Assembly (NCBI GenBank): GCA_027314645.1
Contig: DAHVAL010000001.1
Coordinates: 109,205-173,204 of the forward strand
Origin: Nitrospirota bacterium
Lineage (GTDB): Bacteria; Nitrospirota; Leptospirillia; Leptospirillales; Leptospirillaceae
Reading direction: 5' to 3'
DNA length: 64,000 bases
Below the pieces are notes generated by a model. The model had not been told where the DNA came from. It saw only the letters and a list, made by a program, of their open reading frames with translations, and did not search any database. Positions 9,120 through 24,375 of this stretch are shown here, piece after piece; position 1 is the first letter of the stretch; every line of letters begins with the position of its first letter. The position numbers and the translations under genes were made by a program.

Positions 9120-11501
9120 ATGACGGTCAGGAACCCTTTCCCGGCAGGATTGTCCGGGCCCATGGAAGAATCCGCTCCCGCCTTCCCGCGGTGCGAACGG
9201 ATCCACGTGACCGGCCAGGTTCAGGGAGTCGGCTTCAGGCCGTTTATCTGCCGTCAGGCCAAAAATCTCGGGATCACGGGTTGGGTGAAGAATCGGGGGT
9301 CCGACGTCGAGCTGTTGGCCGCCGGCTCCCCTGACCGGATCGATCTTCTATGCCACCGGATCCTCCATGAAGGCCCTCCTCTGGCCCGGATCCGATCACT
9401 GTGGCGCCGTGTGGAGGAGGGAGCCGCCCTTCCCGGGGAATTCACAATCCTCGAGAGCGCGAAGGCCCAGATCGTCTCGACGCCTCCTTCCGATGCATCG
9501 GTGTGTCCATCCTGCCTGACGGAAGTATTCGATCCACGGGACCGACGCTACCGCTATCCCTTCACGACCTGTCCCGACTGCGGCCCACGCTGGACCGTTC
9601 TGGATTCCATGCCCTACGACCGGGAGAGAACGAGCATGAAGGGATTTCCTCTCTGTTCTCTTTGCCTGAGGGAGTACAGGGATCCGGAGAACCGCCGCTT
9701 CCATGCCGAGACGAGTGCGTGCCCTGTGTGTGGCCCGACCCTTGCCCTTTGGGAGTCCGGAGGCCGGCCGGCCGGGGGGGCAGACCCGATCGAACAGGCC
9801 GTTCGAATCCTTCGCGAAGGGGGCATTCTGGCGGTCAAGGGGGTCGGAGGGTTCCATCTGGCCGTCGATGCGACCAGCCCGAGGGCGGTAGAACGCCTGA
9901 GGACCTTGAAAGGGAGGCCAGACAAGCCATTGGCGATCATGGCCTTAAACGCCCGTTCCCTGGGAGGGATCGTTCGTCTGTCCCGGGAAGGAATCGAGAG
10001 TCTTTCTTCCCCGGTTCGTCCGATCGTCCTTCTCGAGAAAGGCCCGCAGGCGGAGAAGATCCTTCCGGGGATCGCTCCGGGCCTCGACCGGATCGGAGTA
10101 TTCTATCCCTATACGCCTCTTCATTTTCTTCTTTTTCATGAATGGGCGGAAAGACCTGGGGGGACGGAGTGGTTGGCGGCAAGCGAGCTCCCTCCCCTCG
10201 TCATGACCAGCGCAAATCACAGCGGCAGCCCCATTGTGAAGGACGACAAGCTGGCGCTGGAAACTCTTTCCGGGATCGCCGATTTCTTTTTATGCCACAA
10301 CCGGGAGATTCTCGCCCGATGCGACGATTCGGTGGTCAGGCCGGACAAAGAGGGGGGGCGGATCATCCGGCGCTCTCGGGGAATGGCGCCCGATCCGGTC
10401 TTTATCGCGGGGTCGGGGAAGAAGACGGTCCTCGGCACAGGGGGGGCGCTCAAGAATACGGTGTGTCTCTTACGGGAGGACCGGGCCGTCCTCTCGTCCC
10501 ATGTCGGTGATCTTGATAGCGTGGAGGCCCGCCAAGGATTCGAGGAGGCGGCGAGCCATCTTCTCGATGTCTTGGGGTGGGACCCCGAAATCATCGCCTG
10601 CGATCTCCATCCGGATTACTATTCCTCGCGCTGGGCCCGGAAAATCTCACGATCCCGGGGTATCCCCCTTGTGGAGGTCGCCCATCACCATGCCCATGCT
10701 GGAGCGGTCATGGCCGAACACGGGCTTCATGGGGACGTGCTGGCCCTGACGCTCGACGGAATGGGGCTTGGCCCGGACGGGGGCCTGTGGGGAGGGGAGC
10801 TCCTCCGGGTCTCCTCCCGCTCCATGGAGAGAGTGGGACACCTTTCCACCTTGCCGCTACCCGGCGGAGACCGTGCGGCCCGGGAGCCCTGGAGGATGGC
10901 GGTCGCCGCCCTTTTCCGATTGGGCAAGGGGCCCCTCGCTCTCGCCCGGTTCCCGGGGCCGGCCACCGAGTTGCTCCTCGAATCCCTGGAAAGAGGATTG
11001 AATGCCCCGGAGACGTCGAGTGCGGGACGACTTTTCGATGCGGCGGCCGCTCTTTTGGGACTTTCGGTCCGGTCGACCTACGAAGGGCAAGCCGCCATGA
11101 GACTCGAGGCGGAGGCGGGATCGGGGTTGGAGGGGAGGGAGTCCGAAGATTCCGATCCGATCTGTCCGGTGGCCCTGAAAGGGGATCTTCTCGTGCTCGA
11201 CTGCGTCCCTCTTCTCGAGAGATTGGCGGAGTCCCATGATCCCGCGTCCGGGAGCCGGCTCTTCCACCGTGTTTTGGCGAACGCTCTTGCCCGGATGGTG
11301 TTGGGTGCCGCCGATCGGACCGGGCTCGGAAGGGTCGTGCTCTCGGGAGGATGCTTCCAGAATGCGAGGCTTTCATGGAGCCTTCGGGAGACCCTGAAGA
11401 CGCGTGGCCTTCGGGTCTTCGAGCCTCGTCTTGTTCCGGCAAATGACGGAGGGATTTCCCTGGGACAGGTCTATGTGGCCCAGGCTCTGTGGGATCAATG
11501 A
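9120..11501 (+). CDS. hypF: Carbamoyltransferase HypF
   Basis: This 793-residue protein makes the cyanide ligands of the active site by transferring a carbamoyl group to HypE. Domains in order: acylphosphatase (VQGVGFRP at 34-41), two zinc-finger-like Cys sets (CPSCL/CPDCG and CSLCL/CPVCG, about 125-210), a YrdC-like domain, and a Kae1-like carbamoyltransferase domain with HHHAHAGAVMAEHG. Full length with no interruption. The start is ATG 9120, after GGGAGGGTCGCG. Confidence 0.97.
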   Translation: MTVRNPFPAGLSGPMEESAPAFPRCERIHVTGQVQGVGFRPFICRQAKNLGITGWVKNRGSDVELLAAGSPDRIDLLCHRILHEGPPLARIRSLWRRVEEGAALPGEFTILESAKAQIVSTPPSDASVCPSCLTEVFDPRDRRYRYPFTTCPDCGPRWTVLDSMPYDRERTSMKGFPLCSLCLREYRDPENRRFHAETSACPVCGPTLALWESGGRPAGGADPIEQAVRILREGGILAVKGVGGFHLAVDATSPRAVERLRTLKGRPDKPLAIMALNARSLGGIVRLSREGIESLSSPVRPIVLLEKGPQAEKILPGIAPGLDRIGVFYPYTPLHFLLFHEWAERPGGTEWLAASELPPLVMTSANHSGSPIVKDDKLALETLSGIADFFLCHNREILARCDDSVVRPDKEGGRIIRRSRGMAPDPVFIAGSGKKTVLGTGGALKNTVCLLREDRAVLSSHVGDLDSVEARQGFEEAASHLLDVLGWDPEIIACDLHPDYYSSRWARKISRSRGIPLVEVAHHHAHAGAVMAEHGLHGDVLALTLDGMGLGPDGGLWGGELLRVSSRSMERVGHLSTLPLPGGDRAAREPWRMAVAALFRLGKGPLALARFPGPATELLLESLERGLNAPETSSAGRLFDAAAALLGLSVRSTYEGQAAMRLEAEAGSGLEGRESEDSDPICPVALKGDLLVLDCVPLLERLAESHDPASGSRLFHRVLANALARMVLGAADRTGLGRVVLSGGCFQNARLSWSLRETLKTRGLRVFEPRLVPANDGGISLGQVYVAQALWDQ

Positions 11502-11552
11502 GGAATTTCCGAAAGGCCTCAGAGAAAACCTTTAAATAAAGGAGTGCCTTCG

Positions 11553-11804
11553 ATGTGTCTTGCCCTTCCCGCCCGGATCGTCACCCGTCTCCCGGAAGAA
11601 CGGGCGCTTGTAGAAATCGGAGGAGTGTGCAAGGAGATTTCTCTTGCGCTGCTGGACTCGGTGTCCGAGGGAGATTATGTGATTGTTCACGTGGGCTTTG
11701 CCTTGAGCCGGCTCGACCCTGAAGAGGCCCAAAAAACTCTGGCCCTTCTTTCCGGATCCCTTGGAATCGAGGAAGAAGGCGTATCAGGAGGAACCATTCC
11801 ATGA
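11553..11804 (+). CDS. hypC: Hydrogenase maturation chaperone HypC
   Basis: An 83-residue chaperone that works with HypD to carry the Fe(CN)2CO unit to the large subunit. The start is fixed by the essential N-terminal Met-Cys (MCLALPARI) at ATG 11553, behind AAAGGAGTG. The conserved DYVIVHVGFALSRLD segment is present. Its stop overlaps hypD by four bases. This is the general HypC, distinct from the longer HupF at 4250. Confidence 0.96.
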   Translation: MCLALPARIVTRLPEERALVEIGGVCKEISLALLDSVSEGDYVIVHVGFALSRLDPEEAQKTLALLSGSLGIEEEGVSGGTIP

Positions 11805-12946
11805 GTCTTCGTTATATCGACGAGTTTCGGGATCGGACGATCGCCCTTTCATTGGCGAAAAAGATCCGGGAGGAAATGGTCCCGGGCCGGGAATACCGTT
11901 TCATGGAATTTTGCGGGGGCCATACCCATGCCATTTACCGTTATGGCCTCGTGGATCTTCTTCCTCCCGGCCTCCGTCTCCTTCACGGACCGGGATGTCC
12001 TGTCTGCGTTCTTCCGATGGGACGCATCGACCTGGCCCTGGAATTGGCCCTGAATCACGAGGTGATTCTCACAAGCTTCGGGGACATGCTCCGTGTTCCA
12101 GGATCCCACAGCCTGTCCCTTTTAAAGGCCCGCTCGATGGGGGGCGACATCAGAATGGTCTATTCTCCGCTCGAAACGCTTCGGATTGCGCGGGAAAATC
12201 GGGGGAGGCCGGTGGTCTTCTTTGCCATCGGATTCGAGACGACCACCCCCCCCACCGCCGTCCTGATTCGAAAAGCGCTGGAAGAGGGTCTCGACAACCT
12301 GTCCGTCTTCTCGAACCATGTGCTTACTCCTCCCGCCCTCAAGGCGCTTCTTGGGGCGCCCTCTTCGGAGGAGAACCCGACCATCATGGGATTCATCGGT
12401 CCCTCGCATGTGTCGACGATTATCGGGACGAAGGCCTACCGGTTCGTGGCCGAAGACTATCATCGTCCCCTCGTGATTTCCGGGTTCGAACCCTTGGACA
12501 TCCTTCAGTCCATCCTCTGGCTCATCCGGCAGGTCAACGCGGGAAGGGCCGAAATCGAAAATCAGTATGTGAGGGCGGTCGATGATCAAGGCAACCTGAA
12601 AGCGCAGCAGGAAACATTGCGATTCTTGACCGTTCGTCCCGATTTCGAGTGGCGGGGCCTGGGCCGGATTCCCGAGAGCGCCTTGGGTCTTCGGCGGGAA
12701 TTCGAGGCTCTCGATGCCGAAGTTGTCTTCGGGCTTCGAGAGAAGGACGTGGCAGATCCAAAGGCCTGCGAGTGCGGGGAGATTCTTCGTGGGGCGAAGA
12801 ACCCTGAGGATTGCCGAATTTTCGGGACGGTCTGCACGCCGGACAATCCAGTGGGGTCGTGTATGGTCTCGAGCGAAGGGGCGTGTGCCGCCCTTTATAA
12901 TTTCGGTCGGTTCCGCCTTGCGGGCGCAATCAAGGGAGAGTCCTGA
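11801..12946 (+). CDS. hypD: Hydrogenase maturation protein HypD
   Basis: This 381-residue Fe-S protein is the scaffold on which iron receives its CN and CO ligands. Signature motifs: FCGGHTH (C38), GPGCPVCV (C66, C69), GFETTTPP, and the C-terminal cluster-binding cysteines in CECGEILRG, FGTVCTP and GSCMVSSEGAC. ATG 11801 overlaps the hypC stop and is preceded by CAGGAGGAACC. Its stop shares one base with the hypE start. Confidence 0.97.
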   Translation: MSLRYIDEFRDRTIALSLAKKIREEMVPGREYRFMEFCGGHTHAIYRYGLVDLLPPGLRLLHGPGCPVCVLPMGRIDLALELALNHEVILTSFGDMLRVPGSHSLSLLKARSMGGDIRMVYSPLETLRIARENRGRPVVFFAIGFETTTPPTAVLIRKALEEGLDNLSVFSNHVLTPPALKALLGAPSSEENPTIMGFIGPSHVSTIIGTKAYRFVAEDYHRPLVISGFEPLDILQSILWLIRQVNAGRAEIENQYVRAVDDQGNLKAQQETLRFLTVRPDFEWRGLGRIPESALGLRREFEALDAEVVFGLREKDVADPKACECGEILRGAKNPEDCRIFGTVCTPDNPVGSCMVSSEGACAALYNFGRFRLAGAIKGES

Positions 12947-13956
12947 TGGCCACGAAAATGATCGACATGACCCACGGGTCGGGGGGGCGCTCCATGACCC
13001 GGCTGATCGAGGATCTCTTTTTGCCGGCATTCGACAACCCTTGGCTGTCGGCCATGAACGACCATGCGGTCCTGGGGCCTTCCTCCGGACGTCTGGTCAT
13101 GGCAACCGATAGCAATGTCGTGCGGCCTCTCTTTTTCCCCGGGGGAGACATCGGGTCTTTGTCTGTTCATGGGACCGTCAATGATGTGGCCATGGCGGGG
13201 GCCACTCTCCTCTGTCTTTCCGCCGGGTTCATTCTCGAAGAAGGCTTTCCCATGGAGACCCTTTCCCGGATCGTTTCATCGATGGCGGCCTCCGCCAAAT
13301 CCGTCGGGATTCCCATCGTCACCGGGGACACCAAGGTCGTCGAGCGGGGAAAAGGGGACGGGATTTTCATCAATACGACCGGAATCGGGTTCGTTCCGGA
13401 GACGGTGTCCCTGTCTCCTCAACGGGTCGTGCCCGGGGACAAGATCCTGGTCAGCGGCTTTATCGGGGATCATGGGTCCGCCATCATGGCCGTCCGCGAA
13501 AATCTGTCCATTGCTGGCCAATTCCTCTCGGATTCTGCCCCCCTTCACGATCTCGTGGCTTCCCTCATCAAATCGGGCGCGGAGATTCATTGCCTCCGAG
13601 ATCCGACCCGAGGAGGGGTCGCCACCCTTCTCAATGAAATCGCGGCACAGTCGGGAACCGGGGCCCTCATCGAGGAGGAGGCCGTTCCGGTGAGGGATGA
13701 GGTCCGGGCACTCTGCGAAGTTTTGGGAATCGATCCCCTCTACGTGGCCAATGAAGGAAAACTTGTTGCCTACTGTGCGGCCCGCGACGCCGAAAGACTG
13801 CTCGAGGCGATGCGCGCCCATCCTCTGGGCAGGGCGGGGGCCATCGTGGGAGAGGTGACCCAAAACAAGGGCGGATTTGTGCAGGTGAGGACGTCCTTCG
13901 GAGGGTACAGGATCGTGGACTGGCTCTCCGGAGATCCTCTCCCCCGGATTTGCTGA
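12946..13956 (+). CDS. hypE: Carbamoyl dehydratase HypE
   Basis: A 336-residue PurM-like enzyme that dehydrates the carbamoyl group placed by HypF on its C-terminal cysteine to give thiocyanate, the source of CN ligands. The obligatory C-terminal tetrapeptide PRIC is intact. N-terminal HGSGGRSMTRLIE and the DPTRGGVATLLNE motif are typical. It shares one base with hypD and closes the hyp block. Confidence 0.97.
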   Translation: MATKMIDMTHGSGGRSMTRLIEDLFLPAFDNPWLSAMNDHAVLGPSSGRLVMATDSNVVRPLFFPGGDIGSLSVHGTVNDVAMAGATLLCLSAGFILEEGFPMETLSRIVSSMAASAKSVGIPIVTGDTKVVERGKGDGIFINTTGIGFVPETVSLSPQRVVPGDKILVSGFIGDHGSAIMAVRENLSIAGQFLSDSAPLHDLVASLIKSGAEIHCLRDPTRGGVATLLNEIAAQSGTGALIEEEAVPVRDEVRALCEVLGIDPLYVANEGKLVAYCAARDAERLLEAMRAHPLGRAGAIVGEVTQNKGGFVQVRTSFGGYRIVDWLSGDPLPRIC

Positions 13957-14079
13957 GGACGTCTCCCTCCCAGAACGATTGCCTCTTCCGGTCTTGAAGG
14001 AAGAACACGCCATTGTCGCGGGAAAGGTGGTCCTTTCAACGGAGCCCCCGGCGCGATCACTCAGGAGAAGGAGACATCG

Positions 14080-15099
14080 ATGGCCGATGGAAGAGTCGAG
14101 GGGGATCCCTTTCATGGAGCGTGTGCCCCCCTTCTTGTCCGGCGATCGGAGAGAACGCTCGGAGCCGTCCTTCTTCTCTTTACGCTCGGGGTCTGGGGGA
14201 CCTTCCTCTCAATAGGCGGAGGAACGGGTGCGATCCTGGATATGGGACTTCTCGCTTTTCTCATGGGGATCCGCCATGGCTTTGACGCCGACCATATCGC
14301 GGTGATCGACACTCTGACACGGCGCCTTTCCCCCGCCTCGGTCGCCTCCCGTTCGGTCGGATTCTTGTTCGCCGCGGGACATTCTTCCGTTGTGATCCTG
14401 AGCAATCTGGTTCTGATCGCCTTCCTTCACCCCTATCAAGGTGTCCTTGGCCGTCTGGCCCCGATCGGATCCTGGATGGGGACCTTTTTCTCCGCGGGAT
14501 TTCTTACCTTCATCGGGCTGGTCAACCTCCTGATCATTCTCGGGATGCTCCGCCGAACCCGGAAAAGGACAATCGAAGGGCCCATATTGTCGGGCCCGCC
14601 CTCACAATCCTCCCCCCTCCCGCCGTTTCCGTTGCGACCTGCCACGTCTTCCAAAGGAGTCTTTCTGGTCGGGGTTCTCTTCGGGCTCTCCCTCGACACC
14701 TCCGCGGAAATAGCCCTTCTCCTGTTGGCCTTGGCCCTCCAGGTCCCGGGCCCGCATCACCTCTTTATCCTGGGACTCATTCCTGCCCTGTTCGCGGCAG
14801 GAATGATCTCGGTGGACACCCTCGACGGGGTGGTGATGGCCCGGGCCTATCACTGGGCAATGAAGGATTTCAATCGGACCTTGCTTTACAACCTCACCTT
14901 GACCGGGCTTTCCGTCTTTGTGGCCTGGGGGGTGGGCACTCTGGAATGGGTTCGCCTTTTCCGGGGAAAAACCGTCTTCGAACCTTCCTCCTGGGCTGCC
15001 TTGGGGCTTGGAATTCTGGGGGGGTTTATGAGTCTTTGGGCGTTGATGGCGGTCCTTCGGATGCGGCGCGGCCGCAGGCTTCGGGGCATTGAAGGCTGA
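14080..15099 (+). CDS. NiCoT-family nickel permease
   Basis: A 339-residue integral membrane nickel/cobalt transporter of the NiCoT (HoxN/HupN/NixA) family with about eight hydrophobic segments. The diagnostic RHGFDADHI motif is at residues 65-73 in the second helix, and LFGLSLDTSAEIALL matches the family's second motif. ATG 14080 follows AGGAGAAGGAGA. It lies 123 bases after hypE on the same strand, so it probably supplies nickel for hydrogenase assembly. It faces the convergent Ppx/GppA gene. Confidence 0.93.
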   Translation: MADGRVEGDPFHGACAPLLVRRSERTLGAVLLLFTLGVWGTFLSIGGGTGAILDMGLLAFLMGIRHGFDADHIAVIDTLTRRLSPASVASRSVGFLFAAGHSSVVILSNLVLIAFLHPYQGVLGRLAPIGSWMGTFFSAGFLTFIGLVNLLIILGMLRRTRKRTIEGPILSGPPSQSSPLPPFPLRPATSSKGVFLVGVLFGLSLDTSAEIALLLLALALQVPGPHHLFILGLIPALFAAGMISVDTLDGVVMARAYHWAMKDFNRTLLYNLTLTGLSVFVAWGVGTLEWVRLFRGKTVFEPSSWAALGLGILGGFMSLWALMAVLRMRRGRRLRGIEG

Positions 15100-15211
15100 A
15101 GGCGGGAACCCCTCCCTCCCTCGATTTTGTGACCCCCGCGTGCGGGAATTCTTCCGAACAGGTTCGCCACCTTATGGCAAATGAGGATCGGAAAACCGCC
15201 TGGCCAAGGAG

Positions 15212-16750
15212 TCAGCCGACTCCGACCACCTTCCATTCGGTGAACCACTGGATGGACAGGGGATGCCCGAGGCCAAGGTCCCTGCTTTCCGTTTTCGAAA
15301 GGGAAAGAGCGACGTCCGCTTCGGCGAACCCTGGCGGAATGACCTTCAGGACCGGCGCCCGGTAATCCAATGTGGCGGCCCTTCCGTTCGAGGCGAGAAG
15401 AATGTCTCGGGCGAGCCCGAGTGTGGGTCCCAGAATCCCCAAAAGACGCTGGTCCTCCCTGGTCAGATGGCGAAGATAGGGGTGGGTCTTTTTCTTGGCG
15501 CGTGAAGGGCGGTCGTCTCCATTGGTGAGCACAAGCCCGCAGAGGAGGCGGTCTCTCTGGGAGAGCCCCGGAAGGTCTCCATGCAGAAGGAGATCCCAAA
15601 GCTCCCGGGTGTTGGGGGCGGAGACATGAAAGATGGGTAGATACGCCAGCGTTCCTATCATATCGGTCAGCAATCGGACCCGTTCGTTCTGAAGAGGCGC
15701 CGGAAACAGGCTGACATGGAGGGAATGGAGGATATCCCGGAGAGGTTTCGAGTCTCTTAACCGCCCGTATCGGCGGGTGATGCGCCGCAATGTTGCCCGG
15801 GCGACCGGGCCCTCTTCTTCTTTGTCCTCATGGTTCATGAAATGCTCGGCGAATAGTCCCTGCCGCAGCCCGTAATGGGAAAAGGTCAGCACCGGCGATC
15901 CGGACAGGGCGGCGATGGCAGAGATGACCCCCAGCCCGGCGGGGAGGATATCCGCTCTGTCGGCACCGATATTGAACTCCCGGGCTTGTTCGGAGGTCAG
16001 CCGTCTCCCCACCCTCTTCGCGATTCTTGCGATCTCTCGAACCGGGATCTCGTAGTGGTGGATGTCCGGGTAAAAAGGGTACGCCCGGAGCTTCTGGGAG
16101 ATGCGCGCCAGTTGCCGGGCGGTTCCCCCCACCCCGATAAGGGCCGGATAGGGATGGGTGAACAGGGAGGTCTCCTCGAGTGTGGCGGAGAGATACCGTT
16201 CCATCCGTTTCCATTCGGCGGGGGTGGGGCGTCCCCGGTTTTCGAAAAACATCTCTGTCAGTCGGACGGCTCCGAGCGGAAGAGTCAGGATTGTCCGGGG
16301 ATGCCCCTTGTGGAGATCGATGAGTTCTGCGCTTCCCCCTCCGATATCGAATAAGAGGGCGTCGGGCTGATCGAAGCCGTTTTGAACTCCGAGACAGCTG
16401 TACCAGCCTTCCTTTTCTCCGTCCAGGACCTCGATCGGCCCTTTTAATGCCGTGGACAGCCGAGTCAGGACCTCCTCCCGGTTCCGGGCGTCCCGGACCG
16501 CTGAAGTGGCCACGCACCGCACCGATTCCACCTGGTGGAAGGCGATCCACTTCCGGAATCCTTCCAGGGCCTGGCAGGCGCGCTCAACCGCGGCAGAGGT
16601 GATGACAAGGGACGGGTACATGCCCGAAGCGATCCGGGCGGAGCTTTTTTGGCGGGCGACCGTCCAGAAATCATCCCCCCTGACGGCAACGATTTCAAGG
16701 CGCATGGAGTTCGAACCGATGTCGATGAAGGCGAATTTCTGAAGGCTCAT
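15212..16750 (-). CDS. Ppx/GppA-family exopolyphosphatase
   Basis: A 512-residue ASKHA-fold phosphatase acting on polyphosphate and/or pppGpp. FAFIDIGSNSMRLEIV (6-21) and LLFDIGGGSAELI are the nucleotide-binding motifs, and SAVRDARNREEVL is the conserved third motif. The C-terminal half resembles an HD-type helical domain seen in long Ppx proteins. It is transcribed toward the hydrogenase operon, with its start 64 bases from the promoter of the divergent quinone cluster. Sequence alone does not decide Ppx versus GppA. Confidence 0.9.
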   Translation of the reverse strand: MSLQKFAFIDIGSNSMRLEIVAVRGDDFWTVARQKSSARIASGMYPSLVITSAAVERACQALEGFRKWIAFHQVESVRCVATSAVRDARNREEVLTRLSTALKGPIEVLDGEKEGWYSCLGVQNGFDQPDALLFDIGGGSAELIDLHKGHPRTILTLPLGAVRLTEMFFENRGRPTPAEWKRMERYLSATLEETSLFTHPYPALIGVGGTARQLARISQKLRAYPFYPDIHHYEIPVREIARIAKRVGRRLTSEQAREFNIGADRADILPAGLGVISAIAALSGSPVLTFSHYGLRQGLFAEHFMNHEDKEEEGPVARATLRRITRRYGRLRDSKPLRDILHSLHVSLFPAPLQNERVRLLTDMIGTLAYLPIFHVSAPNTRELWDLLLHGDLPGLSQRDRLLCGLVLTNGDDRPSRAKKKTHPYLRHLTREDQRLLGILGPTLGLARDILLASNGRAATLDYRAPVLKVIPPGFAEADVALSLSKTESRDLGLGHPLSIQWFTEWKVVGVG

Positions 16751-16813
16751 TCCTAAATTGTGCCACAGGGGGGGAAGACTTCCAAGATCAGGCTTCCCCT
16801 CGAGATCCGCCGA

Positions 16814-16841
16814 TTGATCCCGGGAGATCTTAGGTTATAAT
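16814..16841 (+). promoter_or_regulatory. Candidate sigma70 promoter of the quinone cluster
   Basis: TTGATC at 16814-16819 and a perfect TATAAT at 16836-16841 are separated by 16 bases. It lies 90 bases upstream of the ubiE-like gene and between divergent genes, so it is likely to drive the four-gene cluster ending at the terminator near 20680. Confidence 0.6.
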
Positions 16842-16875
16842 GGGAAAACATTGTGTGCGGCCGGGGTCATTCTTG

Positions 16876-16903
16876 CCTCCGTAACGGAGGGGGCGACGCC
16901 CCC
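16876..16903 (+). promoter_or_regulatory. Two adjacent hairpins in the 5' leader of the quinone cluster
   Basis: Inverted repeat CCTCC/GGAGG at 16876-16890 (5-base loop) is followed by GGGGGC/GCCCCC at 16889-16903 (3-base loop), sharing two bases. They are mutually exclusive at full length and lie between the predicted promoter and the ribosome site at 16920. Function is unknown; no T-run follows, so a terminator is unlikely. Confidence 0.4.
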
Positions 16904-16930
16904 TTCATGTGAACTGACGAAAGGAACGGA

Positions 16931-17683
16931 ATGTCGGAGTATTCCCTCCCCACCAAGGAAAAAAAGCAGGAAGTCGTCCAGAATATGTTCACCTCGGCGG
17001 CCAATGCGTATGACCTGAACAATTCCGTTCTGAGCCTGGGCCAGCATCATCGGTGGAAGCGCCTGACGATCAGCCTCCTACAGGTCGAAAGGGGACAGGT
17101 GGTTCTTGATTTGTGCGGCGGGACAGCCGATCTTTCCCTTCTGGCCGCCGAGAAAGCCGGCGGGGATGGCCTCGTCATGACCCTCGACCTCAACATGGCC
17201 ATGCTCAAGGTTGGCCTGTCCAAGGCCCGTTCCGGGGTGATCGACGGTCTCAAGGAGAGGAAAAGCCGGGCGAGGCCGGTCATGATCCAGGCCAACGCCG
17301 AGCGCATCCCCCTTCCCGATGAGTCGGTTGACCGCCTGATGGTCGGGTTCGGCCTCCGGAACGTGACCAATCTCGAGTTGGCCCTGTCCGAAATCTACAG
17401 GGTTTTAAAGCCGGGCGGCCGATTTGTCTGCCTGGAGTTTTCCCATCCCGTGAATGGTTTGTGGGAAGGGCTGTACCGCTTCTATTCTTTTTACATCCTG
17501 CCAAAGATCGGCAAATTGATATCCAGGGACAATACAGGGATCTACGAGTACCTTCCCGCCTCCATCGCGAAATTCCCGGACCAGGAATTCTTCAGCGAAA
17601 CCATCAGGAAGGCCGGATTTTCCTCCGTGAAGTATCGGAACCTGTCGGGAGGGATCGTCGCGATCCATATGGGAGAAAAGTAA
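16931..17683 (+). CDS. ubiE: UbiE/MenG-family quinone C-methyltransferase
   Basis: A 250-residue SAM-dependent methyltransferase that methylates the ring of a quinol precursor. The UbiE signature YDLNNSVLSLGQHHRWKR is near residue 22-39, followed by motif I (LDLCGGTADLSLLA) and RVLKPGGRFVCLEFSHP. ATG 16931 has GAAAGGAACGG upstream. It is the first gene of a cluster with a radical SAM protein, a chorismate lyase-like protein and UbiA. This context favours a benzoquinone over menaquinone as product, although the enzyme family serves both. Confidence 0.93.
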   Translation: MSEYSLPTKEKKQEVVQNMFTSAANAYDLNNSVLSLGQHHRWKRLTISLLQVERGQVVLDLCGGTADLSLLAAEKAGGDGLVMTLDLNMAMLKVGLSKARSGVIDGLKERKSRARPVMIQANAERIPLPDESVDRLMVGFGLRNVTNLELALSEIYRVLKPGGRFVCLEFSHPVNGLWEGLYRFYSFYILPKIGKLISRDNTGIYEYLPASIAKFPDQEFFSETIRKAGFSSVKYRNLSGGIVAIHMGEK

Positions 17684-19255
17684 ATGGAGAGCTTGGAACT
17701 TTCTATGGCGGCCCCCATGGAGAGCCGTCCCCTGAGCGGGTACCGCCGCATCCTTTTTGTCTGGCTTCCCGTTCGGAAGATCTACCCCGTAGGGATCGGC
17801 TATCTGGCCAACTGGATTCATCGGGAGCACCCGGAGGTCGCAATCGAGGTGCTTGACCTTACGCGCTTCGAAGAGCCTGATCAGATGTCTGCCCTGAGCC
17901 GCAAGATCGCCGAGTTTTCGCCGGACCTCCTGGCCTATTCGTGGCGGGACGTTCAGATCTTTGCCCCCCACGAGGGGGATAATTCCCTTCGGCGTGCGTT
18001 CGAATTCTATTACTCCCCCAATCTTCTGACGCGCGCCTATGCGGCCTGGGACGGGGTGCGCATGGTCTGGAAATACCGGTCCGAATTTCACAAAAAACTC
18101 CGGTTCATCAGGGAAGGGGTCCGGAGGGCTCCTGGGGCCCAAGTCATGGTGGGGGGCGGAGCATTTTCCGTTTTTGCCGAACAGATCATCCGCCTGCTCC
18201 CGGAGGGCGTGATCGGTGTCGTCGGGGAAGGCGAGGAGGCCATGATCAAGCTTCTCGAAGGCCGTTCCCTCGGAGACGAACGGGTGATCACCCGGAAGGG
18301 GAAGCAGATCATCCTGGGCAAGAAGGAAGGCGCCGTCGAGATCCGGAGGGCTCCCTTCGACCTTGCCTACCTCGAATCGGTTTATCCCGGCCACGAGATG
18401 TACCACGGAAAGCCGGTGGGGATTCAGACCAAGAGAGGATGTCCCTACGGGTGTTCCTTTTGCCTCTATACCTATATCGAAGGCAAGAGGGTGTACTACC
18501 GGGACCCCGAAGATGTCGTCGATGAAATCCGCCAGTACCAGGAGAGATGGGGGGTCCGGAATTTCTGGTTTGCAGACGCTCAGTTCATCCCCGGCGTGAA
18601 AGCGGTTCCTGAGGCGGTCTCCCTTTTGAAGGCATTAAGGGACAGCAACCTCGGGATCACTTGGAGCGGCTACATTCGGACCAGCCTCATCTCGATGGAG
18701 ATGGCCAAACTCATGGTGGAGTCGGGGATGGGGGATCTGGAGGTGGCCATCACCTCGGGGTCCCAGGAGATCCTCGATTCCCTGAAGATGGGCTTCAAGC
18801 TCGAAGGATTGATGGAAGGCTGCCGCAACCTCAAGGAGGCGGGATACAAGGGAAAGATCATCCTTAATTACTCCCTCAACGCTCCCGGAGAAACCCCCGA
18901 ATCCCTGGCGGAAGCGGTCGCAAGCTATGAGGCCATCTGTGACCTCTTCGGTCCGGAAAATGTGTATCCGATGGTCTTCTTTTTGGCGGTTCAGCCCCAT
19001 ACAAGCTTTGAAAAGCGCCTGATGCGGGAAGGCTGGCTCGAGGAAAACTACGACCCGATCTCTTTAAACCCCTGGACGATCCGGAAGCTTCTCTACAACC
19101 CGGGGCCCCTGGGAGAACTGATCGCGAAAGCCTGCCTTGTGGCCTGGGACATCGAGCCCATGGCGATGGGACGGGTCGTCATGCGCGAGATAAAGAAGTC
19201 TCTCGGCTTGGCGGGGGTTCACGTAAAAGGATCCGCCGTGGCCCAGGCTTCGTGA
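17684..19255 (+). CDS. B12-binding-type radical SAM protein in quinone cluster
   Basis: A 523-residue protein with an N-terminal cobalamin-binding-like Rossmann region (about 20-190, with GGGAFSVFAEQI and VVGEGEEAM as in B12-radical SAM enzymes) and a radical SAM core whose cluster motif is CPYGCSFC (C253, C257, C260). There is no DxHxxG cobalamin ligand, so B12 would bind base-off without a protein ligand, or not at all. ATG 17684 directly follows the ubiE-like stop, and the 3' end overlaps the next reading frame. Between ubiE and ubiA homologs it most likely modifies the quinone ring (methylation or hydroxylation). The reaction is inferred from context only. Confidence 0.85.
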   Translation: MESLELSMAAPMESRPLSGYRRILFVWLPVRKIYPVGIGYLANWIHREHPEVAIEVLDLTRFEEPDQMSALSRKIAEFSPDLLAYSWRDVQIFAPHEGDNSLRRAFEFYYSPNLLTRAYAAWDGVRMVWKYRSEFHKKLRFIREGVRRAPGAQVMVGGGAFSVFAEQIIRLLPEGVIGVVGEGEEAMIKLLEGRSLGDERVITRKGKQIILGKKEGAVEIRRAPFDLAYLESVYPGHEMYHGKPVGIQTKRGCPYGCSFCLYTYIEGKRVYYRDPEDVVDEIRQYQERWGVRNFWFADAQFIPGVKAVPEAVSLLKALRDSNLGITWSGYIRTSLISMEMAKLMVESGMGDLEVAITSGSQEILDSLKMGFKLEGLMEGCRNLKEAGYKGKIILNYSLNAPGETPESLAEAVASYEAICDLFGPENVYPMVFFLAVQPHTSFEKRLMREGWLEENYDPISLNPWTIRKLLYNPGPLGELIAKACLVAWDIEPMAMGRVVMREIKKSLGLAGVHVKGSAVAQAS

Positions 19256-19278
19256 GCGCAAGGGAGGACCGGCAAGCC

Positions 19279-19776
19279 ATGGAAACCCTCCTGGAAGGAC
19301 AGATCCCTGAAGGGTTTCCCCGGCTTCCGGGACCCTTCAGGATGCTCCTTGGACTCGACGGAACGCTGACCCGTTCTCTGACGTTTCTCACAGGGGAGGC
19401 GGTCAAGGTCGAAACGGTCCGCTTGCCGGAGTCCCTCGATGGGGTCAGAAAAGTGTTCCTGCGCGTTCCGATCCATGGACGGCTGGTTTTTGCCCGAACT
19501 CGCGTCATGGCCCGTTCCTCGCGAACACTGGAAGGGGACATCGCGTCATTGTTGAAGGGAGATTTGGCCATCGGGCAGTCGATGGAGGCCCGGTTCGGTC
19601 CCCTCGTGAAGGATCAATTTGCCATCTTTTCAGTGTCCGGGGCGTACGATCCCGACGGTCCGGAGGAGATCGGCCCAATCTGGGCCCGCTCCTATCGAAT
19701 GAGCACGCGCGACGGGTTTTCCCTCAAAATTGAGGAATTTTTTCTTCCGACCCTCCTCCGACTCTCGGGAGGGTGA
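19279..19776 (+). CDS. Chorismate pyruvate-lyase-like protein (UbiC/DUF98 fold)
   Basis: A 165-residue protein matching the chorismate lyase fold family: LLGLDGTLTRSLTFLTGEAVKVE near the N-terminus, ARSYRMSTRDGFSLKIEEFF near the C-terminus with the conserved Arg and Glu. The family converts chorismate to 4-hydroxybenzoate, the substrate of the UbiA enzyme encoded just downstream. ATG 19279 is chosen for its AGGGAGGA site. A GTG at 19252 overlapping the previous stop would add nine residues. Confidence 0.82.
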   Translation: METLLEGQIPEGFPRLPGPFRMLLGLDGTLTRSLTFLTGEAVKVETVRLPESLDGVRKVFLRVPIHGRLVFARTRVMARSSRTLEGDIASLLKGDLAIGQSMEARFGPLVKDQFAIFSVSGAYDPDGPEEIGPIWARSYRMSTRDGFSLKIEEFFLPTLLRLSGG

Positions 19777-19782
19777 GCCAGG

Positions 19783-20649
19783 ATGTCCGGACGCTTGAGC
19801 GCGACCCTGGATCTGATTCGGTTCGATCGCCCGGTGGGGTCGCTGCTCCTTTTTCTTCCGGCGGGGTGGTCCATCCTGCTTGCGCATCCGGGCGACGTCG
19901 AATGGAAGTGGCTGGCCATATTCTTGATGGGGTCCTTTCTGACCCGCTCGGCGGGGTGCGTCATCAACGACCTCTTCGATCGGGACCTCGACCGGAAGGT
20001 GTCCCGGACGAAGTCCCGGCCTTTGGCGGCCGACCGGCTCTCTCCCCGCTATGCCGCCGGAGTCTTTTTCGCTCTGACCATGGCTTCGGCCTCCCTTCTC
20101 CTGTTCTTCTCGAAAACAGCGATTCTTGTGGCGGTGCTGGGGTACGGGACCGCCGTCGTCTATCCTCTGATGAAGCGTTTTTTCCCCCTCCCCCAGCTGT
20201 TCATGGGGGTCCCCTTCGGGGCGACAGCCCCGCTCATGGCGTGGGTCCAGATATCGGGGGGATTTTCCCGGGCGGGAGTGTGTCTCTCTCTGGCCGGGCT
20301 TTTCTGGGCCACAGCCTACGATCTGATCTACGCAGTGGCCGATCTTGCAGATGACCGCCTGGCTGGAATAAAATCTGGGGCCGTCACCTTCGGCGATCGT
20401 CTCTGGATGGTGTTCCTGTTTTTATCGATCCTTGCCGTGACGCTTCTGTGGGAGGCCGGACGGACGCTTCCCCAGTCCGGATGGCTGTTTCTGGCACTTG
20501 TTCTTTTTCTTGTGGTTGTAGGATGGCAGTCCCTCCGGATGAAGCGGGGGCTGGACCCAGAGGAGCCTCTGCGCCTTTTTCGCTCTCATGTTCTTCTCGG
20601 AACTCTTGTGATGGCAGGCTTGTGGATCTCCTCGCCGATACTGGTCTGA
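19783..20649 (+). CDS. ubiA: UbiA-family 4-hydroxybenzoate polyprenyltransferase
   Basis: A 288-residue integral membrane prenyltransferase that attaches the polyprenyl tail to an aromatic acid. Both Mg-diphosphate motifs are present: NDLFDRDLD (62-70) and YDLIYAVADLADD (179-191). About eight or nine hydrophobic helices. The second motif is of the UbiA rather than MenA type. It begins six bases after the lyase-like gene; a hairpin terminator follows its stop. Confidence 0.93.
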   Translation: MSGRLSATLDLIRFDRPVGSLLLFLPAGWSILLAHPGDVEWKWLAIFLMGSFLTRSAGCVINDLFDRDLDRKVSRTKSRPLAADRLSPRYAAGVFFALTMASASLLLFFSKTAILVAVLGYGTAVVYPLMKRFFPLPQLFMGVPFGATAPLMAWVQISGGFSRAGVCLSLAGLFWATAYDLIYAVADLADDRLAGIKSGAVTFGDRLWMVFLFLSILAVTLLWEAGRTLPQSGWLFLALVLFLVVVGWQSLRMKRGLDPEEPLRLFRSHVLLGTLVMAGLWISSPILV

Positions 20650-20661
20650 CGTAATTATTGG

Positions 20662-20688
20662 GGGCAAGCCATTGGCTTGCCCTCTTTT
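20662..20688 (+). terminator. Rho-independent terminator after ubiA
   Basis: Perfect 9-bp stem GGGCAAGCC/GGCTTGCCC (20662-20670 with 20674-20682), loop ATT, followed by TCTTTT. It ends the quinone cluster transcript 13 bases after the ubiA stop. Confidence 0.8.
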
Positions 20689-20700
20689 AGGGAGGTGTCG

Positions 20701-21270
20701 ATGATCTCAGCAAAAAAATTTGTTTGGGTGGTGAGTGCGCTTGCCATGGTCATGCTCATGTCGTCGCAGGCCCGGGCCGCGAGGATTTTTGTGTCCAGTA
20801 CCGCTTTCAAGAATGGGGGAAAAATCTCCCAAAAGTATGTTTTTTCAGGGTTCGGATGCACCGGGAAAAATGTGTCCCCCCAGATCCGGTGGGGACGGCT
20901 TCCCCATGGAACGAAAAGCGTGGCTGTCACCATCTACGATCCCAATGCCCCGACCGGCTCCGGTTGGTGGCACTGGGTGGTGTACAACATTCCTCCCACC
21001 GTTCACGAACTCCCGGAAGGGGTTGGCACGAAAAGCGGCGCCCTTCTCCCGAAGGGGGCACTTCAAGGGGTGACCGATTTTGGATCTCCGGGTTATGGAG
21101 GGCCTTGTCCGCCCAAGGGGGACAAACCCCACCATTACATCGTGACCGTCTATGCCCTCAAGACCGATAAACTGGACGTGGGGCCCGGGGCGTCACCGGC
21201 CCAAATCGGATACTTCATCCATTTTGCAACCGTGGCGAAAGGTCGGTTGATCGGCCGATATGGACGCTGA
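20701..21270 (+). CDS. Exported PEBP/YbhB-family protein
   Basis: A 189-residue phosphatidylethanolamine-binding-protein-like (YbhB/YbcL) protein. It starts with a Sec signal peptide (hydrophobic stretch about 7-20, ending at ARA), so it is periplasmic. The family core shows GFGCTGKNVSPQIRW, VTIYDPNAPTGSGWWHWVVYNIP and YGGPCPPKGDKPHHY, including the ligand-pocket Asp-Pro and His residues. ATG 20701 follows AGGGAGGTG. Molecular role in bacteria is not established. Confidence 0.9.
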   Translation: MISAKKFVWVVSALAMVMLMSSQARAARIFVSSTAFKNGGKISQKYVFSGFGCTGKNVSPQIRWGRLPHGTKSVAVTIYDPNAPTGSGWWHWVVYNIPPTVHELPEGVGTKSGALLPKGALQGVTDFGSPGYGGPCPPKGDKPHHYIVTVYALKTDKLDVGPGASPAQIGYFIHFATVAKGRLIGRYGR

Positions 21271-21320
21271 GAAGAACAGGCAAAGTCTCGGATGACGCCG
21301 GATCGATTTTGAATTCCGGC

Positions 21321-21349
21321 TTGCGATTTTTGATTTCTTTGGGTATGCT
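21321..21349 (+). promoter_or_regulatory. Candidate promoter for two small membrane proteins
   Basis: TTGCGA at 21321-21326 and TATGCT at 21344-21349 with a 17-base spacer, 66 bases upstream of the ATG at 21416. Each element matches the consensus at four of six positions. Confidence 0.4.
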
Positions 21350-21415
21350 CTCACACACGGCAATTCACCAGTTTGCCGACCGAACTTTTACATTATTCCG
21401 ATCGGAGGTTTCAAA

Positions 21416-21544
21416 ATGCCTCACATTCAAACCGTTGGAAACTGGACCGCGTTGGAGTGGGTGATTCCCGTCGGCCTCGCCTGTGCAATTATCGGCGGCT
21501 GGTTCATGGCCATTTCGTCCATCTATTCCAACCCTGACAAGTAG
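21416..21544 (+). CDS. Small single-pass membrane protein (42 aa)
   Basis: A 42-codon reading frame with ATG 21416 preceded by ATCGGAGG at a suitable distance. It encodes a polar N-terminus, one hydrophobic helix (about residues 14-35) rich in Gly/Ala/Ile, and a short charged tail. It is followed 36 bases later by another small membrane protein, as in pairs of tiny respiratory-complex subunits. I do not recognise the family; an accessory subunit of an oxidase or other membrane complex is only a guess. Confidence 0.6.
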   Translation: MPHIQTVGNWTALEWVIPVGLACAIIGGWFMAISSIYSNPDK

Positions 21545-21580
21545 GATTTCCTGCAGGCTCGTGTTTAGGATCGTGATCCT

Positions 21581-21766
21581 GTGAGTGCTCTTTCGGAAAT
21601 CAAAAAGATGTGGACCGATGCCCGGCCGATCTTCTTTATATTGGCCGGTGTCATCGGTCTTTTTCTCCTCCTGTTCGGCTCCATGATGTGGGGATTGCTT
21701 GGGAAGGACTCCTTCAGCAAATATGCCCACGGTCCCGCCACTCCCTCTTCCCAGGTCCAAAAGTAA
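21581..21766 (+). CDS. Small single-pass membrane protein (61 aa)
   Basis: A 61-residue protein from GTG 21581. It has a short charged amphipathic N-terminus, one strong transmembrane helix (about 18-40, Phe/Leu/Gly-rich) and a polar Ser/Pro tail. No family recognised. It is probably co-transcribed with the 42-residue membrane protein at 21416. The GTG start lacks a strong ribosome site (AGGATC), so coupling to the upstream gene is possible. Confidence 0.5.
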   Translation: MSALSEIKKMWTDARPIFFILAGVIGLFLLLFGSMMWGLLGKDSFSKYAHGPATPSSQVQK

Positions 21767-21962
21767 ACCCGGGGCATCAATCCGGCCCGGCGACGGGGTT
21801 TCCTTCTTCCGGCTTGATCGCATATCATGATTCTCCGGGCGCGATGCTTGAATTTCAAGGCCCGACCCGGGTAATCTGTCAAAATGCGTGCTAGTTTACT
21901 TTCCGAGGCGTCCGAAAATAAGAATTCATGAGTGAAGATGAATTTCAAGAAAGGATAGTTCC

Positions 21963-23333
21963 ATGGCGGGTGGGGAAGGACTGAGCGCGGTCGAAAAGAA
22001 AACTTTGGCCGGGCTCAGCATGATTTTTGCCATTAGAATGTTTGGTCTTTTCATCGTATTTCCGGTCATCAGCCTTTACGCGCGGATGCTGCCGGGGGCG
22101 GACCCGTTCTGGCTCGGGATGGCCTTGGGAGGGTACGGGCTTTCCCAGGCGCTGTTCCAGATCCCCTTCGGGATGCTGTCCGATCGGTTCGGACGAAAGA
22201 CCATGATTGTCCTGGGGCTTTTGATCTTCGCGGGAGGCTCGGTGGTTGCCGCCACGGCCCATACGGTCATGGGATTGTTTATCGGCCGTCTTATCCAGGG
22301 GTCCGGAGCGGTGGCTTCGGTCATCATCGCCCTGATGGCCGATCTTACGCGCGAAGAGTTTCGGACCCGCGCCATGGCGGGCATCGGGGTCTCGATCGGA
22401 CTTTCGTTCGCAGTCGGGATGGTCGTGGGCCCGATCGTGGGAGCCCATTACGGAGTGGCGTCCCTCTTCTGGCTCACCGGTTATCTGTCCGTCGCCGGCA
22501 TCGCCATCATTCTTTTTGTGGTGCCGAGCCCCCAAGGAGCGGTTCATAAGAACGAAATGGAACTCTCCCTGTCCCAGCTCGGGTACGTCCTCAAGAACCC
22601 GGCCCTTTTGAGAATCGACATCTCCGTCTTCATGCTGCATCTGTTCCTGACGGCGATATTTGTCAGCTTTCCGGTGCTCCTGCACCACTACATGCCCGCC
22701 TCGAATATGTGGAAGGTGTACCTTCCCGTGATCCTCGGGGGCATGTTCTTGATGGTGCCGGGCATGATTGTGGCGGAGAAGCGGAAGAAGCTGAAGATGG
22801 TGTACCTTCTGGCCATCGGATTGATCGTGGCAAGCTTCCTCGTCTTCCTTTTGGGCTACCGAAGCGAATTCGGCCTGATCGCGGGCCTCACCGTCTTTTT
22901 CATCGGATTCAATCTCCTTGAGCCCCTCATGCCCTCGATCATGACTCGTTTTGTGCGGACGCGGACGCGGGGCACCTCATCGGGGGTGTTCAATATGAGC
23001 CAATTCATCGGCGCGTTTCTGGGGGGGGCCTTGGGAGGGGCTCTGGTCACGATCTCCGATGAAGCCCTTTTTATCGGCCTGCTCGTGATCTCCATTCTGT
23101 GGTTCGTCATCGCGCTTGGTTTGACCGATCCCAATCTCCTCGAAACCTTCGAACGTCCCGTGGTGCATGAACTGACCGATCCCATGCCTCTTGTCCGCCA
23201 GATGGGAGACATGGCCGGGGTGATCGATTGCCGGTACAAGGAGTCGGAGAAGATCCTCTGGGTCAAGTATCTCAAGGACCGCATTTCCCCGGAAGATCTG
23301 GAAAGAAAGCTGGCCGGTTTGCTCGGAGCCTGA
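21963..23333 (+). CDS. MFS transporter, YajR-like
   Basis: A 456-residue major facilitator with 12 hydrophobic helices. The loop 2-3 motif A (GMLSDRFGRKTMI) and a YajR-like N-terminus (IRMFGLFIVFPVISLYA) place it near the YajR efflux group. The final 60 or so residues form a soluble domain (DMAGVIDCRYKESEKILWVKYL), matching the small C-terminal ferredoxin-like domain of YajR. The substrate is unknown. ATG 21963 follows AAGAAAGGATAG. Confidence 0.88.
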   Translation: MAGGEGLSAVEKKTLAGLSMIFAIRMFGLFIVFPVISLYARMLPGADPFWLGMALGGYGLSQALFQIPFGMLSDRFGRKTMIVLGLLIFAGGSVVAATAHTVMGLFIGRLIQGSGAVASVIIALMADLTREEFRTRAMAGIGVSIGLSFAVGMVVGPIVGAHYGVASLFWLTGYLSVAGIAIILFVVPSPQGAVHKNEMELSLSQLGYVLKNPALLRIDISVFMLHLFLTAIFVSFPVLLHHYMPASNMWKVYLPVILGGMFLMVPGMIVAEKRKKLKMVYLLAIGLIVASFLVFLLGYRSEFGLIAGLTVFFIGFNLLEPLMPSIMTRFVRTRTRGTSSGVFNMSQFIGAFLGGALGGALVTISDEALFIGLLVISILWFVIALGLTDPNLLETFERPVVHELTDPMPLVRQMGDMAGVIDCRYKESEKILWVKYLKDRISPEDLERKLAGLLGA

Positions 23334-23352
23334 CGGCAAAAGGAAGGTCCGC

Positions 23353-24375
23353 GTGACTCCCATTCGGCGATTTCGCCTCTCTGTTGGACTCTTCCTCTTC
23401 CTGATCGGAGGAGGAACCTTCGGGTACATGGAAATCGAGGGATGGGGATGGGTGGATTCCCTCTTCATGACGGTCATCACGTTGTCCACCGTCGGTTACC
23501 AGACGGTGCACCCCCTCGACCAGGCGGGCCTCTTTTTTACGATGGGACTGATCATCGTGGGGGTCGGAACACTGGGGTATGCCATTGCCACCTTATCCGA
23601 GATCATTCTCGAAGGGCATTTGCGGAGTTTCTGGGGAGGCCGCAAGATGGAACGCATGATCGAAAAACTTGAAGGTCATATCATTGTCTGTGGTTTCGGC
23701 CGCATCGGCTCGCCGGTCGCCGACGCCCTCCATGCCCGCAAGATCCCGTTTGTGGTGGTCGAGGAAAATCCCGAGCTGGTCAAGGAGATCGTGGCAAAGA
23801 AGTATTTGACCCTCATGGGAAACGCCACCGAAGAAGGCGTGCTCGAAAAAGCCGGAATCGGAAGGGCGCAGGCCCTTCTGGTCACGCTCTCGACCCGCGT
23901 GGCCGATGCCGCCTATATCATCATGAGCAGCCGGATCGATCATCCTTCCCTGACGATCATCGCCATGGCCAACGACGCCAAAACGGAATCCAAGTTTCTC
24001 CGGGCAGGGGCCAATAAGGTCGTCTCCCACTTTCTCCTTGGTTGCAACCGGATGGTCATGGCGTTAACCCAGCCGACCCTTCTCGATGTCATGGATATCG
24101 TGACGACCAGGGACGGAATGGGGCTGGCCTTTGACGAGATGGTCGTCCCGGAGATGTCCCCTTTTTGTGACCTCTCGATCGAGGAGATCGCCAAAAAGTT
24201 CATTGTCCGATCTCACATCATCGCCATCCGGCCGGCCGGAGGAAAAAATTTCGTCCTTCCCACCGCCCAGAGCATCCTCCGGGCTCGGGATCAGATCGTG
24301 ATCATCGGGACAAGGGAGGAGTTTGAACGCATCAGGGAGATGGCCGGAGATGGTCGCACCATGGTTTCGTCTTGA
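23353..24375 (+). CDS. Potassium channel with RCK (TrkA-N/TrkA-C) domain
   Basis: A 340-residue ion channel subunit. Two transmembrane helices flank a pore loop with the selectivity filter TVGYQ (46-50). The cytoplasmic part has an RCK Rossmann domain (VCGFGRIGS, 112-120) and a TrkA-C-like domain at the end (about 245-335). The layout is that of MthK-type Kch channels. GTG start 23353 follows AAGGAAGG. It lies 19 bases after the MFS gene, suggesting co-transcription. Confidence 0.92.
   Translation: MTPIRRFRLSVGLFLFLIGGGTFGYMEIEGWGWVDSLFMTVITLSTVGYQTVHPLDQAGLFFTMGLIIVGVGTLGYAIATLSEIILEGHLRSFWGGRKMERMIEKLEGHIIVCGFGRIGSPVADALHARKIPFVVVEENPELVKEIVAKKYLTLMGNATEEGVLEKAGIGRAQALLVTLSTRVADAAYIIMSSRIDHPSLTIIAMANDAKTESKFLRAGANKVVSHFLLGCNRMVMALTQPTLLDVMDIVTTRDGMGLAFDEMVVPEMSPFCDLSIEEIAKKFIVRSHIIAIRPAGGKNFVLPTAQSILRARDQIVIIGTREEFERIREMAGDGRTMVSS

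Follow-up and report, generated by a model that had tools for sequence, protein, structure and literature searches.

We analysed a window of 64,000 nt from the genome of a Nitrospirota bacterium of the family Leptospirillaceae (contig DAHVAL010000001.1), which carries a four-gene quinone operon encoding a UbiE/COQ5-type methyltransferase (MpqE), a cobalamin (B12)-binding radical S-adenosylmethionine (SAM) protein, a chorismate-lyase-like protein and a UbiA-type prenyltransferase (Table 1). The four open reading frames lie on one strand throughout with spacings of 0 nt, a 4-nt overlap and 6 nt, and ubiA is followed by a strong terminator hairpin of 11 pairs and a loop of 3 ending in TTTT (minimum free energy -24.2 kcal/mol; none of 200 shuffled sequences was as stable). 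The identical four-gene order was found in a second Nitrospirota family (L037), at 49% identity for MpqE, 45% for the radical SAM protein and 43% for UbiA, and the unit at 16931-20649 is confirmed as a real operon. An earlier note made from the DNA alone had described one unit with its own promoter and terminator. The unit and terminator stand, while the promoter-like site is weak evidence, with three such sites in the region against 1.7 expected. No Rfam elements were found within window positions 10000-24000.

Table 1. Features of the quinone operon and its flanks (window positions)
Feature	Position	Strand	Details
Promoter-like site TTGATC-16-TATAAT	16814..16841	+	10/12 match
mpqE, UbiE/COQ5-type quinol C-methyltransferase	16931..17683	+	250 aa; PF01209 2.2e-71; NF052510 325 bits
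B12-binding radical SAM protein, Slr0320-related, proposed ring C-methylase	17684..19255	+	523 aa; PF04055, PF02310, NF045585
Cobalamin-binding domain core, residues 137-189 of radical SAM protein	18092..18250	+	PF02310
CX3CX2C [4Fe-4S] motif, C253/C257/C260 of radical SAM protein	18440..18463	+	alignments A1, A2
Chorismate-lyase-like protein, 4-hydroxybenzoate formation	19252..19776	+	174 aa; PF01947 2.1e-5; NF037993 7.5e-6
UbiA-type 4-hydroxybenzoate polyprenyltransferase	19783..20649	+	288 aa; PF01040 170 bits; TIGR01474 240 bits
Intrinsic terminator hairpin and T run	20660..20688	+	z -3.6

The window MpqE belongs to the UbiE/COQ5 family (PF01209, 240.4 bits against a gathering cut-off of 20.1) and is borderline for NF052510, falling below the cut-off of 335 bits that 125 other Nitrospirota genomes exceed. 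Similarly, UbiA is a member of its superfamily (PF01040, 169.9 bits against a cut-off of 34.2), and its nearest equivalog is the 4-hydroxybenzoate type TIGR01474, at 239.5 bits and under the cut-off of 275. The chorismate-lyase-like protein scores 25.0 bits with PF01947 (cut-off 22) and 25.9 bits with NF037993 (cut-off 175). Residues T40/R41, R66 and E162 are conserved in its alignment (A3), R66 and E162 presumably being equivalent to the catalytic Arg/Glu of chorismate lyase.

In the radical SAM protein a radical SAM domain (PF04055, 6.9e-18) is combined with a cobalamin-binding domain (PF02310, 2.4e-6, 27.8 bits, under the cut-off of 32.1), and the CX3CX2C cysteines are invariant across 27 sequences. 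This motif and domain are those of the class B (B12-dependent) radical SAM methylases, and methyl transfer with cobalamin is the predicted activity, for which the displacement by a B12-independent methyltransferase described below is indirect evidence. The AlphaFold model (predicted local distance difference test score 86) has TsrM as its best fold in the PDB (template modelling score 0.62-0.64), and the best-matching folds (TsrM, MgmA, AprD4, CysS, TokK and OxsB) are cobalamin radical SAM enzymes or their close kin. TsrM is a cobalamin radical SAM tryptophan C2-methyltransferase that methylates an sp2 aromatic carbon using cobalamin, although at 19-21% identity it acts on another substrate in another pathway. 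The best family match over the full length is Slr0320 (NF045585), a protein of high-light acclimation of cyanobacterial photosystem II that has the same B12 and radical SAM architecture and whose host, like that of the operon, makes a plastoquinone-type quinone. At 473 bits against a curated cut-off of 775, which is reached in none of 296 Nitrospirota genomes, the window protein is however a relative of Slr0320 and not a member of the equivalog, forming a separate subfamily, and here its gene has mpqE as its neighbour in a quinone operon.

The radical SAM family was identified in 133 of the 296 genomes (threshold E <= 1e-60, nearly all matches E < 1e-127) and MpqE in 144. All 133 radical SAM genomes also carry MpqE, which lies immediately upstream in 120 of them with a median of 73 nt between the matched parts, and the possibility raised by the earlier note, that the gene occurs mainly in genomes without the quinone cluster, is not borne out. 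MpqE without the radical SAM gene was found in 11 genomes, two of which are weaker MpqE matches (~240 bits, family f23) with UbiD close by. The complete four-gene unit was seen in only two families, that of the host and that of L037, the conserved core being the MpqE-radical SAM pair. One of 14 control genomes carries the family, that of Synechococcus elongatus, a cyanobacterium and hence a plastoquinone maker, and it was found neither in E. coli or Caulobacter nor in the plasmid and viral collections. Outside the phylum by name, a metagenome-assembled genome (MAG) labelled Actinomycetota (L131) contains the same pair, and in an archaeon-labelled MAG (L130:870-8982) genes for cytochrome c, a Rieske-like protein and cytochrome b are followed by a Slr0320-related radical SAM gene, a MenA-like and a UbiE-like gene, an order which suggests an unusual naphthoquinone modification. 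By itself such co-occurrence could reflect a single ancestral gain.

In Nitrospira inopinata and N. moscoviensis no quinones other than methyl-plastoquinones (mPQ) were found; the methyl peculiar to mPQ adjoins the prenyl chain (IUPAC position 3) and the remaining two (5 and 6) are those of plastoquinone (PMC12324825). The mPQ reading of the cluster given in the earlier note is supported, and the pathway is already known, having been published in 2025, while a paper of 2026 employing the MpqA-E nomenclature terms it 'elusive' (PMC12324825; PMC13386864). The host genome (95% complete) contains one UbiA-superfamily gene in total, the UbiA type of the operon, and therefore neither MenA nor MqnP, neither of which was found there; the remaining menaquinone genes were not searched individually. 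The absence of menaquinone genes thus holds as far as tested, and the host has no menaquinone prenyltransferase gene with which to make menaquinone only. The Nitrospira pathway, reportedly the MpqA-E pathway of Elling et al. 2025 and Bale et al. 2025, resembles the operon in MpqE, UbiA, chorismate-lyase-like proteins and the lack of a menaquinone prenyltransferase, but UbiD is missing in the host and none of the Mpq names found refers to the radical SAM gene. No mPQ role for the radical SAM gene was found in the literature or NCBIfam, although Elling et al. 2025 may hold one.

In ubiquinone, the corresponding position beside the prenyl chain is methylated by UbiE. MpqE would therefore account for the extra methyl at IUPAC 3, and the plastoquinone-type methyls would in turn require another enzyme. 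UbiD was not found in the host, nor in 124 of the 144 MpqE genomes including all those of families f1, f10 (77 genomes) and f18, and decarboxylation in the host and most mPQ lineages therefore appears to proceed without the known enzyme. Coq4 was considered as a decarboxylating hydroxylase in the host and rejected, there being no PF05019 match. A UbiH-like flavin adenine dinucleotide (FAD) hydroxylase is present in 136 genomes, host included, and was not found in the f8 genome or the f9 genomes at the threshold used. The FAD monooxygenase of the host (L141:1480-2757; G000:C22:47683-48867), which shares ~31% identity with the Nitrospira family accompanying mPQ operons, is a candidate C1 hydroxylase, and hydroxylases of this type might also decarboxylate the ring oxidatively.

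Family f10, which is Nitrospira as judged by named loci, provides natural DISPLACEMENT in the form of six MpqE-positive genomes without an intact radical SAM gene (G050, G148, G188, G248, G262 and G290). A 36-residue remnant is left after MpqE in G148, the gene is broken by frame changes in the one-contig genome G188 (L153; a pseudogene or sequencing errors), and G262 has a clean gap where the gene would be, before the usual next gene. Near MpqE, G050, G248 and G290 encode an FAD hydroxylase and a class I methyltransferase whose N terminus includes a hydrophobic segment. The methyltransferase adjoins MpqE on the opposite strand in G050 and G290, and in G248 it is the hydroxylase that adjoins, with the methyltransferase beyond. 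This methyltransferase was identified in 24 of the 296 genomes, every one in f10. Six genomes contain it with a closely similar FAD hydroxylase (hereafter the cassette), namely five of the six lacking an intact radical SAM gene versus one of the 71 counted as keeping it (Fisher 1.8e-6, uncorrected for phylogeny). MetE shows a similar distribution, in four of the six versus two of the 71 (Fisher 1.6e-4, likewise uncorrected). Although they come from three genera, the hydroxylases of the cassettes group in one clade (100/100), separate from the native copies that the same genomes carry, and the cassette has therefore spread horizontally.

MetE and NrdAB are well established as the enzymes that stand in for MetH and NrdJ without B12, and the usual mode of cobalamin riboswitches is repression by B12. 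In five of the 6/77 f10 genomes with MetE the gene lies ~0.5 to 7 kb from the methyltransferase, and several Nitrospira cassettes are accompanied by MetE, NrdA/NrdB and cobalamin riboswitches. Islands carrying MetE, the methyltransferase, the FAD hydroxylase, cobalamin riboswitches and in some cases class I ribonucleotide reductase (L186, L187, L188 and L189) are mobile between genera. Class I NrdA is present in those of G290 and G207, the G207 gene being identified by its start, which resembles that of the G290 gene. Within these islands the riboswitch heads NrdA or MetE, with the methyltransferase on the other strand.

All relatives of the methyltransferase in the plasmid collection come from cyanobacteria (77-81% identity), and on all six of these plasmids a cobalamin riboswitch lies upstream of the methyltransferase on the same strand, the span between them crossing the record origin in Nostoc edaphicum and containing a transposase in Halotia. 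The methyltransferase is downstream of metE in Picosynechococcus PCC 73109 and NIES-970, and a UbiH-type hydroxylase follows it in three of the six plasmids. The Nostoc edaphicum plasmid (L198:1-5334, L199) brings together a class I NrdA-type gene, the cobalamin riboswitch, the methyltransferase, the FAD hydroxylase, a CobW-family gene and a Rieske protein. A methyltransferase-hydroxylase pair common as a whole to both phyla was rejected, as the plasmid FAD hydroxylase has no match to that of Nitrospira and falls in a separate clade; judged by sequence, only the methyltransferase of the pair is shared between cyanobacteria and Nitrospira. Co-location with the MetE and NrdAB substitutes is most simply viewed as marking the methyltransferase as another such substitute, and this B12-independent enzyme thus seems to replace the B12-dependent radical SAM enzyme. 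Full B12 independence as a requirement for the displacement was rejected, since loss of MetH accompanies loss of the radical SAM gene only in G290, which has neither.

From the gene families, the linkage to MpqE and the displacement described above we infer the reaction, target carbon and step order of the radical SAM enzyme. The operon probably makes the mPQ ring from chorismate, with the radical SAM enzyme C-methylating the ring. The chorismate-lyase-like protein would convert chorismate to 4-hydroxybenzoate for prenylation by UbiA, MpqE would methylate the carbon adjacent to the prenyl chain (IUPAC position 3), and one or both of the plastoquinone-type methyls (IUPAC 5 and 6) would come from the radical SAM enzyme, which would pass the methyl from SAM to cobalamin and then to the aromatic carbon. 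IUPAC C5 is the likely target if the regiochemistry of the MSBQ methyltransferase applies, although both methyls are possible. This step probably precedes C1 hydroxylation by a separate FAD monooxygenase, as a radical enzyme may be able to methylate the less activated phenol. The class I methyltransferase would need a quinol, hence a hydroxylase that accepts the unmethylated ring, and the frequent pairing of the methyltransferase with a ring hydroxylase in both phyla fits such a changed step order. The methyltransferase that some Nitrospira carry where the radical SAM gene would otherwise lie, presumably an Sll0418-type MPBQ/MSBQ quinol C-methyltransferase, would perform the same net methylation as the radical SAM enzyme but differs from it in being a class I SAM enzyme with no B12 or iron-sulfur cluster.

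MenK/MqnK (menaquinone C7/C8) are counterparts in that they too are radical SAM enzymes that C-methylate the ring of a respiratory quinone, but they are HemN-like class C enzymes with no B12 domain and act on a naphthoquinone. Such class C quinone methylases are cited in PMC13386864. A B12-type radical SAM methylase of the benzoquinone ring, or a B12-independent bypass of one, was not found described, although Elling et al. 2025 may state some of this. On balance we favour the broader view, held with less assurance than ring methylation by the operon itself, that the Slr0320 family consists of B12-dependent radical SAM enzymes that C-methylate the quinone ring in both Nitrospirota (mPQ) and cyanobacteria (plastoquinone), making quinone synthesis partly B12 dependent, and that the mobile riboswitch-linked methyltransferase, often with a ring hydroxylase, is its B12-independent replacement in parallel to MetH/MetE and NrdJ/NrdAB.

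A number of observations weigh against ring methylation and its bypass. About 19 Nitrospira genomes keep both the methyltransferase and the radical SAM gene, a retention that fits a MetH/MetE-like isozyme pair without proving one. G262 lost the radical SAM gene with no methyltransferase detected, its MetE running off the contig end, and G050 and G248 carry the cassette without MetE. Cassettes often include a hydroxylase, and the displaced radical SAM enzyme could thus be a hydroxylating one. Synechocystis lacking Slr0320 shows normal growth under normal light, so that Slr0320 cannot be the sole source of an essential methyl there. Finally, the placing of the methyltransferase in the Sll0418 (MPBQ/MSBQ) family is tentative, as no curated model confirms it.

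The earlier note had left open whether the enzyme methylates or hydroxylates the ring. Displacement by a methyltransferase linked to B12 independence favours methylation, and the co-occurrence of a UbiH-like FAD hydroxylase in most genomes keeping the radical SAM gene disfavours hydroxylation. An oxygen-independent, BchE-like and B12-dependent hydroxylation at C1 would agree with the presence of BchE among the distant family matches and with the FAD hydroxylase often found beside the methyltransferase in B12-free cassettes. It is nevertheless unlikely: a single ring hydroxylation suffices for mPQ and plastoquinone, the hydroxylase is missing beside the methyltransferase in three of the six cyanobacterial plasmids and in many Nitrospira methyltransferase genomes, and it is the methyltransferase that recurs throughout the B12-linked loci, although it had served as the search query for them.

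Modification of a target other than the ring in quinone-dependent electron transport (the tail, a lipid, a protein or another cofactor) would suit the activity of some related families on lipids (TIGR04072, HpnR) and the phenotype of Slr0320 mutants, in which QA-to-QB transfer on the acceptor side of photosystem II is impaired and a quinone change is unproven, the authors having raised quinone methylation as speculation (PMC8065906). We regard it as quite unlikely, given the conservation of the MpqE-radical SAM pair in 120 genomes, the position of the related gene with MenA-like and UbiE-like genes beside cytochrome b in the archaeon-labelled contig, and the fact that, next to MpqE, a class I methyltransferase has taken over from the radical SAM gene. 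That the enzyme replaces UbiD in decarboxylating prenyl-hydroxybenzoate might be argued from the absence of UbiD in 116 of the 133 radical SAM genomes, host included; but the displacing enzyme is a methyltransferase, and this very improbable reading was rejected on finding both genes in 17 genomes and in Synechococcus elongatus.

Ring C-methylation by the B12-dependent radical SAM enzyme, if true, would reveal what an orphan enzyme family common to cyanobacteria and mPQ-making Nitrospirota does and would account for ring methylations still unassigned in the synthesis of mPQ and perhaps of plastoquinone. It would also tie B12 supply to respiratory and photosynthetic quinones, such that the quinone pool could shift under B12 limitation, and a dedicated bypass beside B12-sensing riboswitches would exist in some nitrifiers and cyanobacteria.

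Upstream of the operon, window positions 11801-15099 contain genes read by eye as hypD and hypE, with a NicO nickel transporter after them, placing genes of NiFe-hydrogenase maturation close to the quinone genes. A Ppx/GppA phosphatase is encoded at 15212-16750 on the minus strand, divergent from the operon.

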